NCBI GenBank assembly: GCA_020086605.1
Contig: JACBWW010000015.1
Coordinates: 19,415,387-19,479,386 of the forward strand
Source: Lanius collurio
Lineage: Eukaryota > Chordata > Aves > Passeriformes > Laniidae
DNA: 64,000 nt
Direction of reading: 5' to 3'
Made by a program: the position numbers and the translations under genes. Within the stretch, counting starts at the first letter, position 1; each line of letters begins with the position of its first letter. Below are positions 30,551-35,858 of this stretch, piece by piece. The notes beneath the pieces are model-generated. The model saw nothing but the letters and a program-made list of their open reading frames with translations, was not told the DNA's origin and did no database searches.

Positions 30551-30556
30551 AGATAC
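30551..30556. repeat. Target-site duplication, left copy
   Basis: AGATAC immediately outside the 3' LTR. An identical hexamer lies immediately outside the other LTR at 33044-33049. The exact match and exact placement show that the pair of LTRs arrived in one integration and have not recombined with another copy. Confidence 0.9.
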
Positions 30557-30839
30557 TGTTGCAATGAGGGGAATCCTTACAACATGTATAAGACAGCGAT
30601 GAACTTGGAAGGAAAGATGAAGTGATATTTCTTTAGATGTTCAGGGATTATTTTATTCCTCCAGCCACATCTCTAGAGTTCCCAGGCAGACTCCAGTCAT
30701 GGGACCCTGCTCTCTTCCCGGGCCCCGGGCACCCAAAACCACCCAATCAGGAACAGGTATGGGGCACGGGGGACAGGGACAGGGACCTGTACCCTGCAGG
30801 GTCCCTCCCCCCAGGATTTCAGGGGAAGGCACCTCCACA
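30557..30839 (-). repeat. 3' LTR of the Y-box-carrying element
   Basis: Same ends as the 5' LTR (TG...CA) and co-linear with it over its full length. The AATAAA signal is at the complement of 30652-30657 and the inverted CCAAT box at 30743-30747. Since the element runs in the BANK1 sense direction, this signal could in principle terminate BANK1 transcripts prematurely. Confidence 0.92.
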
Positions 30840-30853
30840 ATTCACCCTTTCTT
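30840..30853 (-). promoter_or_regulatory. Polypurine tract before the 3' LTR
   Basis: On the minus strand the bases immediately before the 3' LTR read AAGAAAGGGTGAAT, an almost pure purine run where plus-strand DNA synthesis would be primed. Its location independently supports the minus-strand orientation. Confidence 0.75.
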
Positions 30854-31078
30854 ATTAAATAAAATAACATTGGAAAGAGTTGGATAAACAACAAAATATT
30901 TTCAAAGGAAAGAAAGCCACTATCTTGAGTGCCCAAATGCCCAAACAGATTTCCTTTGGAGCATCAGAAGGGAGACAAGACTTGAGCACGCTTCAGATGG
31001 AAACTGAGGAAGGGATTTTCCTTTTTGTACCTGTTGGATGCTTAGAAAATGACAGTTAATTTCTTCCCTCCCTCCTTT

Positions 31079-31330
31079 TCATCCCCCCATTGGCATTGCA
31101 AAGGGATTAATGGCAAATGAAAAAGCTTGGTTTTGTGAGGGGAGCCAGAAAGGGAAATTTGGGCTGGGCATATATGGGGGATAAAGGGACATGGGATAAA
31201 AGGGGAAGGTGGGATAGGGCAGAGGATAGGGATTATGGGGGATATTGTCCAGCATATCTACTGCCTTTGACAGGGACACCCTCAGGGCCTGTAACACAGG
31301 CGGCCTGTGGGCCCTTCCTTCCTTGCACAA
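31079..31330 (-). CDS. Pro/Tyr/Phe-rich frame overlapping the cold-shock ORF end
   Basis: 84-codon open frame in a different register from the cold-shock ORF, overlapping its last 98 bases and continuing about 150 bases beyond its stop. The unique part is strikingly rich in Pro, Tyr and Phe, for example PYPLPYPTFPFYP, then ends with a stop at 31079-31081. This composition suggests that it was once the tail of the cold-shock protein and is now separated by a small indel, or is reached by frameshifting. It resembles no specific YBX tail that I can name. The repeated TCCC/CCCTTATCC pattern of the DNA could also give this composition by chance. Confidence 0.4.
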   Translation of the reverse strand: MCKEGRAHRPPVLQALRVSLSKAVDMLDNIPHNPYPLPYPTFPFYPMSLYPPYMPSPNFPFWLPSQNQAFSFAINPFAMPMGG

Positions 31331-31751
31331 TGTTAAATTCTACTCTTTCTCCTTCTTCTAAGCTTGGAACATCACTTTTGGGGTTATTTTTTACAATAGT
31401 GGATTTATGAACAAAAATACTTTCTCCAGTATCGTTTCTCAAGAAACCGTAATTTTTCTTTACATTATACCACTTTACAGTTCCAAAAACCCTAGCTGTG
31501 ATAACCTTTTCATTTTTCCGAGTTCCTTTGTTCTTGCTTTCACTTTCAGTTTTGCTCACTCTTGCACTGGAGCTGCCGCAGCCAGGACCGCCAGGGCTGG
31601 TGCCGCCAGCGCATTCCTGTCGCAGGGTCTTGACTCCTCGGGATCGCGTGTGGGGCCACGTGGGCCCGGTCTGGCTGTGCTGCTGCACGCTGACCCTGCC
31701 GGCTGCTCCTCCTTCGGCCACCTCTGCACCGCCGTTTGGCACAGTGCTCAC
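31233..31751 (-). CDS. Y-box cold-shock domain protein (captured, intronless, YBX-like)
   Basis: 172-codon open frame within the LTR element. Residues about 1-80 are low-complexity (Gly, Ser, Ala), residues about 82-152 form a cold-shock domain, and TGPEGVPVKGSRYA follows, a signature of vertebrate YBX1/YBX2/YBX3 rather than LIN28 or CSDE1. The RNP-like motifs are TVKWYN, NYGFLRND and IFVHKSTI. Trp94, Phe103, Phe113 and His115 correspond to human YB-1 Trp65, Phe74, Phe85 and His87, which stack on nucleic-acid bases, so binding could be retained. One residue is missing between the two RNP motifs. In cellular YBX genes introns interrupt this domain; here it is continuous, indicating an mRNA origin. 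The domain is well diverged from the almost invariant cellular YB-1. The frame stops soon after the domain, losing the basic/acidic-repeat tail. Confidence 0.8.
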   Translation of the reverse strand: MSTVPNGGAEVAEGGAAGRVSVQQHSQTGPTWPHTRSRGVKTLRQECAGGTSPGGPGCGSSSARVSKTESESKNKGTRKNEKVITARVFGTVKWYNVKKNYGFLRNDTGESIFVHKSTIVKNNPKSDVPSLEEGERVEFNIVQGRKGPQAACVTGPEGVPVKGSRYAGQYPP

Positions 31752-32335
31752 TTCCCCTCTGGAGCTCCGCGTGACTGCTCCACGCTCTCCAGGAGTTCAC
31801 GCGGCTGCACGGCCGTGCCCTGTGAGGTGTTCGCGTGTTTGCGGCTTCGTACCGCCGGCGCTGCTGCTGCTGCTGCTGCTGTTGGCTGTGTGGCTGTCAG
31901 CTAGCACAGTTCACTTCTTTCCCCCACACCCCTCTGGCTCTGCTCGGCATGGCTCACCACGGTCGCCATAGCGACTGCCACAATCGCCGCTGCCTTTCTC
32001 GGCATGGAGCTCGGGCTCGGACCATCACTCACCATGTGGCGGACATTGCCGGGACGCGCCTCGGCCGCCACCACCCTCGCTGCTGCCTCAGGGCGAACAC
32101 CGCCGGGCCCGCGCTGCCGCATTGCTCCTGGCTCCACTCCCGCCGCCTCCAGTCTCCCCGCCGGCTCTGCTCCCTCCGTGCCTGGCCTCACTGGCTCTCC
32201 CATGCACTGGAGCTCCCTCACTGCCACCCGCAATGCACTGGGCACCCGCAGCTGGGGCTGCGTGGTCTCCGGGGTGTTGGAGGAGCCCGCTGCAAGGCGG
32301 GCACTGCTCGACCACGTGTTCACTGCTGAAACAGC
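31560..32335. other. CpG-rich segment inside the LTR element
   Basis: About 0.8 kb of high-GC, CpG-dense sequence within an AT-rich intron, including a CTG run at 31861-31881. It spans the low-complexity N-terminal part of the cold-shock ORF and the upstream Ala/Arg-rich frame. First exons and 5' UTRs of YBX genes are typically CpG islands, so this probably represents captured 5' mRNA sequence. Confidence 0.7.
31861..31881 (+). repeat. (CTG)7 trinucleotide repeat
   Basis: Seven uninterrupted CTG units (CAG on the minus strand, the sense of the LTR element), followed by a degenerate unit. It could encode a short Gln, Ser or Ala run depending on frame. Confidence 0.9.
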
Positions 32336-32479
32336 AGCGGTACACAGCCGATATTGCTCAACAGTCTCTGAAATCAGGTAATATTCACAGAAGAAGTCTT
32401 GCATCGGCACGTTTTTTGATTGGGAAATTAACTGTGACCAAACATTCTTCCAAAATCCTTGGTAAGAATCAAATTCCAA
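31901..32479 (-). CDS. Open frame spanning gag-like start and CpG-rich segment, function unknown
   Basis: 192-codon open frame with an ATG at 32479. The first 45 or so residues look like the continuation of a matrix-like sequence (SKNVPMQDFFCEYYLI, VEQYRLC). The remainder is rich in Ala, Arg, Gly, Pro and Glu because the DNA becomes strongly CpG-rich, and it has no recognised domain. The composition change near 32330 may mark the junction between viral and captured host sequence, the CpG-rich part then being 5' UTR or first-exon sequence. It is in a different frame from the cold-shock ORF that begins 150 bases downstream, so there is no intact fusion protein now. It may be open only by virtue of high GC. 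Confidence 0.35.
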   Translation of the reverse strand: MEFDSYQGFWKNVWSQLISQSKNVPMQDFFCEYYLISETVEQYRLCTAAVSAVNTWSSSARLAAGSSNTPETTQPQLRVPSALRVAVRELQCMGEPVRPGTEGAEPAGRLEAAGVEPGAMRQRGPGGVRPEAAARVVAAEARPGNVRHMVSDGPSPSSMPRKAAAIVAVAMATVVSHAEQSQRGVGERSELC

Positions 32480-32574
32480 GAAACATAGAAGAAGTTTTTA
32501 AACAGCCATGCCAAAAAGTGTCTTAGTTCTTTCTGAGCTTGAATTAAGCTAAAATCTACATATTGCTGTTCAAG
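32428..32574 (-). pseudogene. Decayed gag matrix-like reading frame (tentative)
   Basis: An open stretch of about 48 codons lies where gag should begin, roughly 170 bases inside the primer-binding site. It opens directly after a stop codon and has no start codon, and it ends at a TAA at 32428-32430. It contains a hydrophobic, aromatic helix-like run (QKELRHFLAWLFKNFFYV), the sort of composition seen in the matrix domain of class II endogenous retroviruses. A second frame overlapping its end (32479 leftwards) starts with similarly matrix-like residues (FWKNVWSQLISQ), which suggests that one frameshift separates the two halves. No zinc-knuckle or capsid motif follows. The assignment is from composition and position only. 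Confidence 0.4.
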
Positions 32575-32727
32575 AACCTTTTAAAGTTTAAGGTAAATGT
32601 CTCTTTGTGGTTCGGACAGCCATGAGTCATTCCATGAGTCCTCCACCGTTCAGAGATGGGACGGCAAAATGAAAGCAAGAAGAGATATCGAGTGTTACTC
32701 ACAAATTATCTTCTCCAGGAATCGTTT

Positions 32728-32745
32728 GCCAGCATTTCTCCACCA
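32728..32745 (-). promoter_or_regulatory. Candidate primer-binding site (tRNA-Ala-like)
   Basis: Two bases inside the 5' LTR the minus strand reads TGGTGGAGAAATGCTGGC. Its first nine bases fit the complement of the 3' end of avian or mammalian tRNA-Ala species ending in TCTCCACCA; the rest then needs a two-base insertion and some mismatches. Position, the TGG start and the two-base spacer are typical of a primer-binding site. The tRNA assignment is less certain than the site itself. Confidence 0.62.
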
Positions 32746-32747
32746 TT

Positions 32748-33043
32748 TGTTGCAATGAGGGGAATCCTTACAACAATATATAAGACAGCGATGGACTTGG
32801 AAGGAAAGATGAAGCGATATTTCTTTAGATGTTCAGGGATTATTTTATTCCTCCAGCGACATGGCTGGAGTTCCCAGGCAGACTCAGTCATGGGACCCTC
32901 TTCTCTCTTCCCAGGCCCCGGGCACACAAACCACCCAATCAGGAACAGGCATGGGGCACACGTAACATGGGAGCAGGGACAGGGACAGACCCATACCCTG
33001 CAGGGTCCCTTCCCCCAGGATTTCAGGGGAAGGCACCTCCACA
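32748..33043 (-). repeat. 5' LTR of the Y-box-carrying element
   Basis: Direct repeat partner of 30557-30839. On the minus strand it begins TGTGGAGGTGCC and ends CATTGCAACA. An inverted CCAAT box (plus-strand CCAAT at 32935-32939) lies in the likely U3, and an AATAAA polyadenylation signal (complement at 32844-32849) lies about 100 bases before the LTR end. No convincing TATA box is visible in this orientation. The LTR is short. It is about 13 bases longer than the other copy because of a small insertion near 32960-32985. Confidence 0.92.
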
Positions 33044-33049
33044 AGATAC
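33044..33049. repeat. Target-site duplication, right copy
   Basis: AGATAC directly abutting the outer end of the 5' LTR, identical to 30551-30556. Confidence 0.9.
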
Positions 33050-34047
33050 CATCTTGCTTCACAAGAAATGCCCCTGACTGAGAGAGCAATACCAGCAATT
33101 CAGCCGCATGCTTGGCTGCAGATGGATTTGGAAGGGGGTATCCCTCACATTCCCAGAGCTGTGCTGCTGGTGCCCAGCTTGGGAAATGGGATCCCAAACT
33201 ATTCCAGGCCCTTGCATTTCTGCTGTTGAATGTTCCACTCTGATGACAAAGCTCAGAAGAAAACACAAAGAGCATTCTCCTGGCTGGCAGCATGTGATAG
33301 CTCTCCCACTCTGAAAAGCAGTAAATTAGCTTTGCTTTTCCTCTTTCTACTAAATGACCTAAAGGACAATAAGAAATTATTTTTGTTAATGCATGACCTT
33401 AAATAAAATGAGGGCATAACCTCTTCCTCCATGTGTCTCTTTAGAAGTAATTAACAAACTTCCTCTCCATGGCTCGCAGCTTTGATGCAGTTCTTTCAGT
33501 GACTCAGTGTGTGGGCTTTTGCAAATCCTGTTTTTGTGCACCTCAATTTACTCCATACATTGAACACAAAGGAGCCGTAGAGCCTTGCCAACAGTTGTGC
33601 ATTTCAGTAAATATATTCAATGCTTTCAGACAGGCAGAAAGCCTGATGTACGTTAATATATATTAAATGAATGTAATAAACGTAAGTTTGATGTAGTCAT
33701 GTTTCTGTTAGCTGACACCGCTCAATAGCACATTTGGTTTGTTTGGTGACATAAGGCTTCATGAAAGATGCACATCACCCAACAGTTTAAAACACAAGTC
33801 TTAGGAGATCAACATATTTAACTTTGGATTTTAACCAAATTCAGAAAACCTCTCAAGTAATCAAACAACAGTGGAAACGGGTTTCTAGAAGATTCAGAGC
33901 CATAAGCAGCAAGCTCCTTGGGAGCTGATTTGCGTGTAAAGCAATGATTATTACTTATGACCTCATATGCAGGAGCCAAAACACAAGATCTTGTTTTCAG
34001 AACTTCTGATCAAGATTCCTATCAAGGAACAAATTTCAAACTCATAC

Positions 34048-34232
34048 CTGTTGAGTGAACGGTAGTCTCTGCTTTTTGTTCTGCCACTCTTTAAATCTGT
34101 CAAGGGCTTCATCCACAGAAATTTCCCCCTTTTTCACCTGCTCCTGCAAGTGGATGAGTTCTTTCTGTTCAGGAGGGATGTTGTGTACCACTGTGCTGTA
34201 AGTTACTGTCTCAGTGTGGCCTCTGTGTGCTG
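34048..34232 (-). CDS. BANK1: BANK1 internal exon (conserved helical segment)
   Basis: 185-bp exon entering in phase 1 and leaving in phase 0, with donor GTATGA after CAACAG. It encodes EQKELIHLQEQVKKGEISV followed by DEALDRFKEWQ, which aligns with the conserved BANK1/BCAP helical segment (EELILLQEKVKNGKMSMDEALEKFKHWQ region). This is predicted to be helical or coiled-coil and is the most conserved part of the C-terminal half. The acceptor is a tandem TAGCAG, so a second acceptor three bases downstream (exon right edge 34229) would drop one alanine without changing frame. Compared with mammals, the linker before the helix appears shorter. Confidence 0.93.
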
Positions 34233-35858
34233 CTACAACAAAATGTACAAAGTCAGAAATGCAACAAATCAATAAGGATTCTACCATTACTCTCTGGAAG
34301 CAGAGCAGCATACCAAACATTCTGTTCATTACTATTGCCCAGGTCCATGGATTCTCCATCAGTGTTGGTTCATAAAAGAATTTCCTTTTAGCACTACCAT
34401 TATACTACTGACATTTTAAAGGAAATGGTTGCTATATAAAATATCCACGGAGCCTTTTTATCCCTTTCTTCTTCAACATCCTACATTACACATCTCAAAA
34501 GTTTGGTAAGGAAGCATTTTGAAATGTCACAAGATTTCCTTCCTCCAAATTACTAAACACATTGCAGCAACAAGAAAACCCTGCAGCCCAGGATTCCTGG
34601 AGAATATGATACAGGTGCACAACTGAAGGGAGATGTGTATTCTCAGATTCACAGCTTAGTCCAGGCAGATGTAGCACTGCTTCTCTCCAGGATACTGACA
34701 CTGGAATGGCTGATCCAGAACACATGATCAGCCACAAAACGGGGGTCTCTGAGCCCTATATGAGGCTGTTGCATCTCTTTCACTGCATGGGGAGTCTGGC
34801 CAGGATAAAAGTTTAAACCATCAGTATGATTTGGGTCAGTTTTTCTGTTACCACTATCTTCATTTCAAGCAAGGAATGATTGTTCAAAGGGAAATATACT
34901 AAGGAAAGGAATAAACAGCTACTGTGGCTTCTCCCAGTACCCTTTTTGATCATACCAGTATACAGTGAGCATGAATTTCTACTCTTTCTTCTCAGCTAAT
35001 TGGTTCTATTTAGGTGGATTAATGACCTTTCATCTGACAGGATTATTTGCAGATCAGATCAGGTTAGGTAAAACTGCATTGTTCGTATCAGCAAAAGGGG
35101 TGGGAATATATTTCCTCAGACCCATAAAACCATGTAGTCACTCCATCAAAGAAAGCCACAAGGTTGGTTTGTGGAGCTGTGCTACCAATATTCCACCACA
35201 GTAAGATCTAGAAGGTCCTCTCTTCTTTTCCTAAGTGGTTTAGCATTCATGCAAAGCAATGTCAGCAGCACTGGAGACTGCAGTTCTCCAGAGCAGTAAT
35301 AAATCAGTGGTTACATGCTTCTCTATATGCTTTAATCCTGACCTGCTATTTGATAACTGAAGCAGGAAGAAATATCTTCACCCAGTGTTCAGTCATTTTC
35401 TACAAAATATTGTTAATTATTTTAGGGTACCATTGATAGAATTTATAGTAGCAGCATTGTAATGTGCTACAAAATAACAACTGGACTGCCACAAGTAATT
35501 AATTTTCTATGGATCTTAGGACACCCAGGAGGAAACTGTTGCTCCCCCTACTACTGTCTTTCCCTGGCTGGAATTAGTGCACAGCTGAGCCCTCCTGTCC
35601 TTCCTTTTTTTGGCTTTAATCACAATGATGAATGGAAGCAAAAAAATGTAAACTCTGACTCTACAAATCTTTCCTACAAGACTGTAACTTTTAGTCTTCT
35701 TTCTTCAATCTGATCGCTCAGTGCTGCAATACCATTAAGGATATAAATCATAGGTGGCAAAACAGATGCTAAAACACCCAAAATCAAGTCACAGCAAAAC
35801 TCTATTAGTTCTACTGAAAAATATCACGGCAGTTAAAAAGCTAAATTAAATTCTGTAC
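34233..35858 (-). other. BANK1 intron
   Basis: 1.6-kb phase-1 intron with no repeats or embedded genes recognised. Confidence 0.8.

Follow-up and report, generated by a model that had tools for sequence, protein, structure and literature searches.

A dispersed LTR retroelement family of Lanius collurio with a Y-box type cold-shock domain joined to a gag-position domain

Introduction

Most host genes captured by retroviruses are oncogenes that do not last long, and in the acutely transforming (gag-onc) retroviruses an intronless host sequence lies behind a 5' viral part and is replicated with a helper. These viruses are exogenous and short-lived, whereas the element described here, a long terminal repeat (LTR) element of Lanius collurio with a Y-box type cold-shock domain (CSD), belongs to an old germ-line family of at least two diverged clades, and its domain is no known oncogene. 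This Y-box element was found in a stretch of 64,000 nucleotides (the window; assembly GCA_020086605.1, contig JACBWW010000015.1, positions 19,415,387 to 19,479,386 of the forward strand). The best overall explanation, held with good confidence, is a non-autonomous family resembling endogenous retroviruses (ERVs), in which a captured Y-box CSD is fused to a domain in the position of gag; the anatomy and the capture themselves are nearly certain.

The host relatives YBX1, YBX2 and YBX3 have a long C-terminal domain in which basic and acidic islands alternate, and introns split the CSD in their genes. The Y-box element shares with them a CSD with a TGPxGVPVKGSRYA-like flank (46-64 of 87-89 residues identical to YBX1 or YBX2), but its protein has a viral-position N-terminus and, in the window family and the second clade, a short tail rich in proline, tyrosine and phenylalanine (P/Y/F-rich). 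The proteins of ENS-1/ERNI of chicken are presumably unrelated to that of the Y-box element. ENS-1/ERNI is likewise an avian LTR element that includes a coding region, present with more than 800 solo LTRs, and differs in that the excerpted text of PMC3362752 does not mention a Y-box domain.

The excerpted text of PMC4299795 describes CrocERV29 (KIT-ligand) and CrocERV31 (nectin3), crocodilian ERVs with captured host mRNAs. They are similar to the Y-box element in being endogenous lineages with a host mRNA-derived open reading frame (ORF) and evidence of purifying selection, but a ligand or adhesion gene is located between pol and env or replaces env (six nectin3 insertions) (PMC4299795). The Y-box element instead has a nucleic-acid-binding domain behind the gag-position domain, neither pol nor env, and far more copies than this excerpt gives for the crocodilian elements. 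In mouse mammary tumor virus (MMTV), a betaretrovirus, Gag was found together with YB-1 and viral RNA, and knock-down of YB-1 reduced the particle output (PMC4486188, in part). This combination of a retroviral Gag, a Y-box protein and viral RNA resembles the situation considered here, except that YB-1 is a recruited host protein in MMTV while the Y-box element would encode its own. A search of the CC-licensed PMC literature by title and start of abstract, a scope outside which Repbase, Dfam and subscription papers lie, found no Y-box or cold-shock gene in an ERV. The Y-box element is a host-gene capture; it stands out by the type of gene captured, by the fusion, by its age and by its copy number.

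Results and discussion

Structure of the window copy

The LTR element extends from 33043 to 30557 with the minus strand as the sense strand, and its interior is approximately 1.9 kb. An initial annotation, made from the letters alone, had proposed that an LTR lineage captured a host Y-box mRNA here. Its paired LTRs with TG..CA ends were confirmed: the two LTRs are direct, agree at 264 of the 281 compared sites (17 differences, Kimura two-parameter distance (K2P) 0.064, 6% diverged), and have the termini TGTT..CACA on the plus strand and TGTG..AACA in sense. The exact 6-bp target duplication it had noticed, AGATAC, is present on both flanks, as are its candidate primer-binding site TGGTGGAG and polypurine tract AAGAAAGGGTGAAT, both of which recur with changes in other paired copies. 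The primer site presumably corresponds to the 3' end of tRNA-Ala; no tRNA genes were found in the window. The sense order of the interior is primer site, leader, gag-position domain, GC- and CpG-rich block, CSD, tail, 3' tail and purine tract, as listed below.

33044..33049, no strand: target-site duplication AGATAC, right copy, exact 6 bp, element flank
32748..33043, minus strand: 5' LTR in sense orientation, 296 nt, from LTR alignment and genome matches
32935..32942 in the 5' LTR and 30743-30750 in the 3' LTR, minus strand: CTGATTGG (inverted CCAAT, Y-box core), from the sequence
32728..32745, minus strand: candidate primer-binding site starting TGGTGGAG, two bases (AA) past the LTR
32342..32646, minus strand: gag-position N-terminal domain, in pieces 32646-32452 and 32458-32342 (next frame), with unbroken counterparts in other copies
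31512..32341, minus strand: GC- and CpG-rich linker-coding block, about 220 amino acids (aa) in long-frame copies, frame broken here
31248..31511, minus strand: Y-box type CSD, 88 codons, open, from Pfam, PDB and model
31079..31246, minus strand: P/Y/F-rich C-terminal tail, shifted by one frame relative to the CSD in the window copy
30854..31078, minus strand: 3' non-coding tail common to the family, from comparison of copies
30840..30853, minus strand: purine-rich tract AAGAAAGGGTGAAT, adjoining the 3' LTR
30557..30839, minus strand: 3' LTR in sense orientation, 283 nt, from LTR alignment
30551..30556, no strand: target-site duplication AGATAC, left copy, exact 6 bp, element flank

The initial annotation saw the CSD in place of pol and env in the 1.9-kb interior. 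An intronless YBX-type CSD is indeed there, but a gag-position domain also lies upstream, decayed in this copy by the loss of the start codon, one in-frame stop and one frameshift. The orientation and frame had to be corrected, as the sense strand is the minus strand, the frame runs from a GTG with no in-frame AUG ahead of the CSD, and the tail is frame-shifted.

The modules also differ in base composition. The linker block (31512-32341) has a G+C content of 54-72% and a CpG observed/expected ratio of 0.64-0.98, which for contrast is 0.00-0.11 in the 3' part of the element and 0.17-0.44 in LTR windows, and a part of the CSD is A-rich (42%). These contrasts hint at different histories of the modules.

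Dispersal of the family

The genome of the window (1.097 Gb) was searched with parts of the element; first-look candidates beyond the scored matches are unverified. The LTR query gave 40 scored matches of 3470 first-look candidates. Among 38 other LTR-selected loci, 20 contained the CSD, 16 had an LTR only in the stretch, and one tail piece and one leader piece made up the rest. As two of these loci were fragments and 16 had an LTR only, every remaining LTR-selected locus with an interior has the CSD. The dispersed LTR-CSD-LTR copies by which the initial annotation expected a mobile family to be recognized are present, and its concern that other copies might lack the domain was not realized, the mapped copies keeping the same order of parts. 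With the CSD as the query, the best 150 of 1338 candidates were scored, all of which (window included) had E <= 1.5e-43, and the queries with two types of the upstream domain were scored for 150 matches each, of 1175 and 1050 candidates. The copy number is at least in the hundreds and perhaps over a thousand.

Two LTRs were present in the stretch in 18 copies, 17 of which gave K2P values of 0.055-0.155; the eighteenth gave 0.023 from 45 sites only. Exact and mutually different 6-bp duplications were detected in 8 of these 18 copies, besides the window. In the other 10, the flanks matched over 5 nt or had mismatches, BLAST had misplaced an LTR end, or the stretch was cut. A 6-bp target duplication is the rule in class II (ERVK, beta-like) retroviruses, and this length was found in the window and in 8 of the paired copies. 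The paired LTRs, the independent duplications and the dispersed copies with solo LTRs demonstrate that the family is one of LTR retroelements or endogenous retroviruses. Because the paired copies, approximately 2.1-2.8 kb long, have no room for pol, the family is non-autonomous, the element being without its own reverse transcriptase and integrase. Two loci had a complex arrangement: L031 contained two adjacent copies in opposite orientation, one truncated within the CSD, and L014 had a third LTR (634-928) inside the gag-position domain, a nested insertion or a recombination product.

The motif CTGATTGG, present in both LTRs of the window, was exact in 28 of the 56 long LTR matches. This distribution leaves room for a promoter role, in which the CSD would mainly be a transcription factor acting on this Y-box of the LTR and driving or restraining its own promoter. 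We regard that explanation as improbable, since half the long LTR matches have no exact copy of the motif, such a factor would have no need of a gag-position fusion partner, and NF-Y binds inverted CCAAT boxes, which are frequent in promoters.

The Y-box type cold-shock domain

A Pfam CSD match with E 9.2e-20 was obtained in the minus-strand frame 31233-31751, and the closest solved structures by sequence were those of YB-1 and YBX2 (best four, E 9.4e-30 to 1.3e-28). The window CSD was identical to zebrafish YB-1 at 50 of 88 residues (51 with another aligner), and sites conserved between YB-1 and bacterial Csp were retained more often (19/24) than sites elsewhere in the domain (26/53; p 0.011). 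The AlphaFold model of the window frame, with a mean pLDDT of 61.1, contained the five strands of the CSD at a pLDDT of approximately 90 in the better blocks, and a Foldseek search of the PDB with the modeled CSD gave YBX2 and YB-1 as top matches. A protein search with the 172-aa window piece retrieved 11 short Csp-like proteins, while the long-frame query retrieved crow and YBX proteins. These results demonstrate that the window domain belongs to the Y-box type CSDs. A scan of viral contigs with the CSD gave no match; a single viral-contig match for the gag-position piece (L001) was judged spurious and dropped.

The CSD ORF is intronless, as it would also be if a later independent retrocopy had been nested in an ordinary provirus, the other outcome by which the initial annotation would have been overturned. 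We consider this practically impossible and rejected it on position, frame and divergence, and the dispersed copies refute it. The order of parts is constant in the mapped copies, one reading frame joins the CSD to the upstream domain in the four long-frame copies described below, and neither a poly-A stretch nor a private duplication was seen around the CSD in the window. A later YBX retrocopy is also unlikely because 38 of the 88 residues differ from YB-1, far beyond the 6% divergence of the LTRs.

The fusion protein and its crow relatives

Open frames of 503-518 aa were present in 9 of the 150 scored CSD matches, and the other searches list more frames near 500 aa. The four long-frame copies that were fetched (L048-L051) each had one AUG-started frame of 502-508 aa, coding in order for the gag-position domain, a low-complexity linker, the CSD and the P/Y/F-rich tail. 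The contiguous, intronless YBX-related CSD inside the element corresponds to the host-derived coding sequence of transducing (gag-host fusion) retroviruses; in all four copies one frame spans it and the 5' part, which is putatively viral by its position.

The N-terminal query from L048 retrieved two proteins, both annotated as 'Uncharacterized protein' of the passerine Corvus moneduloides and both with a CSD. The CSD-tail query gave a third crow protein on top, followed by vertebrate Y-box proteins, mostly YBX2 (among the 120 listed of 271 matches). All three crow proteins (P0012-P0014) have the N-terminal domain and the CSD, and two of them (P0012 and P0014) have short P/Y/F-rich tails, P0013 ending soon after the CSD. 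These 'uncharacterized' UniRef proteins are probably products of the element family and not of ordinary host genes.

A tree of 27 CSDs was constructed, with a host set of 11 sequences picked from the 120 listed matches plus two PDB sequences, and no bacteria. The 13 host YBX CSDs formed one group with a support of 100, with the element and crow CSDs on the other side. This tree, proposed in the initial annotation, supports the capture by an LTR lineage together with the dispersed copies and the in-frame fusion. The crow protein P0014 joined nearest to the host group (support 89) and may stem from a separate capture or belong to a lineage that changes slowly. Another tree, rooted on bacterial Csp and separating the two clades, was set aside, as its root was distrusted in view of long branches.

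Second clade, modular 5' parts and donor

When the genome was searched with the YB-1 CSD (best 150 of 1304), the top rows were a second element group, up to 74% identical to the query, compared with near 56-61% for the window family. Four of the top loci of this clade (L052-L055) had direct LTRs that were 81-89% alike and approximately 70% identical to the window LTR, and all four interiors contained a related upstream domain, the CSD and the P/Y/F-rich tail. Among the 81 sites where YBX1 and YBX2 agree, 47 were unchanged in both clades and 17 were changed in both. At 10 of these 17 sites both clades have the same residue, which points to a single capture or a single divergent donor.

Three of the ten shared derived residues (V62I, E64Q and A69P, piece numbering) are present in goose YBX2 (P0018) and absent from the alligator and turtle YBX2 compared; of the three, a vole YBX1-like protein has V62I only. 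The three residues common with goose YBX2 and the KGSR of the flank suggest avian YBX2 as the donor, with one goose sequence as the basis.

The upstream domain was found in two types. Type B was joined to the same linker, CSD, tail and LTR in L010, L011, L012, L035 and L040, and that of L011 was 34% identical to type A. L054 is a mosaic of a clade-2-like LTR and CSD, a type B upstream domain (87% identical in nucleotides to L011) and a window-type linker, and its sequence points to recombination within the family. From the two upstream-domain searches, nine loci were hand-picked, three for long frames and six others; the CSD followed downstream in eight of them (3/3 and 5/6, respectively). In the remaining locus, L059, no CSD was present within the 601 bases fetched, which leave the element inside the linker.

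Selection on the cold-shock domain

The ratio of non-synonymous to synonymous substitution rates (dN/dS) was calculated for the six pairs of L048-L051; as these copies were chosen for long frames, stops were removed by the choice, which did not favour synonymous change. The CSD gave ratios of 0.13-0.39; the whole frame gave 0.44-0.59, its N-terminal domain 0.29-0.75 and its linker 0.53-0.71, and the tail gave 0.31-0.62 in five pairs. In the control with shifted frames, the range was 0.56-1.27 over the whole frame and 0.45-3.6 in the CSD (11 of the 12 values being defined). The CSD ratios were 0.24-0.41 in six pairs within the second clade and 0.18-0.38 in 16 pairs between the clades, the latter being rough, since dS approaches or exceeds 1 in many of them. 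The CSD of the element is under purifying selection.

The 22 CSDs of the LTR-selected set (window plus 21 sequences from 20 loci) showed synonymous and non-synonymous changes at 16:24 for shared and 32:100 for singleton changes (p 0.043). The excess of non-synonymous singletons is as expected if most copies decay neutrally after insertion. All 11 compared sequences retain the contact residues K64, W65, F74, H87 and K118, and 10 of them retain F85; an RNA-binding role of these CSD residues is described in the excerpted text of PMC7226217.

The nearly neutral recent divergence seen in the singletons, and the broken or short frames in the window and most of the ten first-read copies, would agree with a CSD that is a neutral passenger, the LTRs and leader being sufficient for mobilisation by a helper and the protein having no role. 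We hold this to be unlikely, as the CSD ratios in frame are below those in the shifted frame, the ratios remain low between the clades, the stacking and lysine contacts are retained in 11 sequences (F85 in 10), and the crow proteins have the same two domains.

The N-terminal domain

The N-terminal domain is matrix-like by position and by eye only. The AlphaFold model of a crow protein had a mean pLDDT of 33.6, and its four helices in the N-terminal domain, at a pLDDT below 50, are no evidence. The domain had no Pfam or NCBIfam match, and PDB searches returned nothing or chance-level rows. These negative results would suit another host-derived part instead of Gag, the element then being a chimeric host gene carried between LTRs. 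We give this explanation some weight and think it rather unlikely, because the domain opens the coding region behind LTR, primer site and leader, which is the place of gag, and two divergent types (34% identical) are found on one CSD module, like recombining gag segments. No copy in which the upstream domain opens a longer gag was seen in the domain-search lists, the only ones looked at.

Proposed function

For the function of the captured domain in the ERV-like family, we tentatively propose, as somewhat less than an even chance, that the CSD fusion protein aids the RNA of the element in helper particles. An ancestral element took up the Y-box CSD, most likely that of avian YBX2, through a spliced mRNA. 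The LTR-driven full-length RNA would be both mRNA and substrate and would be translated to the fusion protein, the N-terminal domain of which may bring it to the particles of a helper retrovirus. The CSD would bind RNA, most likely the element's own transcript, for packaging, stability or reverse transcription, and reverse transcriptase and integrase would be supplied in trans. The association of MMTV Gag with YB-1 reported in PMC4486188 speaks for such a function. A bolder version, to which we assign a still lower probability, is that the CSD replaced the capsid-nucleocapsid half of Gag, and that such a self-encoded ribonucleoprotein component marks its own RNA for helper packaging and enabled the spread to hundreds of loci, perhaps more than 1000, in several clades.

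Several observations weigh against this proposal or the fusion on which it depends. The window copy is broken, and a fusion protein from an AUG is impossible there. The tail dN/dS was 2.22 in one of the six pairs of long-frame copies, and the codon-position analysis did not bring out a clear reading frame in the GC-rich linker (overall 0.112/0.097/0.098). The contrast between shared and singleton changes in the 22 CSDs is weak (p 0.043), with p 0.064 for the shared changes against the neutral expectation. Among the residues of the CSD, R69 is replaced by K in both clades and T89 by S in the window clade, and 4 of the 21 LTR-selected copies covering W65 have lost it. The lack of a database match for the N-terminal domain counts on the same side, and no pol-bearing helper was found, the type A frames being at most 525 aa in 150 scored matches of a search not aimed at pol.

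If the proposal is true, a retroelement can replace the RNA-binding machinery it had with that of its host. Y-box proteins as packaging factors and the route of a pol-less element to high numbers become testable, and the cold-shock proteins annotated as 'uncharacterized' in crow would be accounted for.

Neighbourhood of the element

A further minus-strand open frame is located at 34042-34404 of the window. Its terminal peptide is reminiscent of an exon of the B-cell adaptors BANK1/PIK3AP1, and Pfam and PDB searches gave no support for it. If the frame is such an exon, the element is situated within or close to an intron and has the orientation of the gene.

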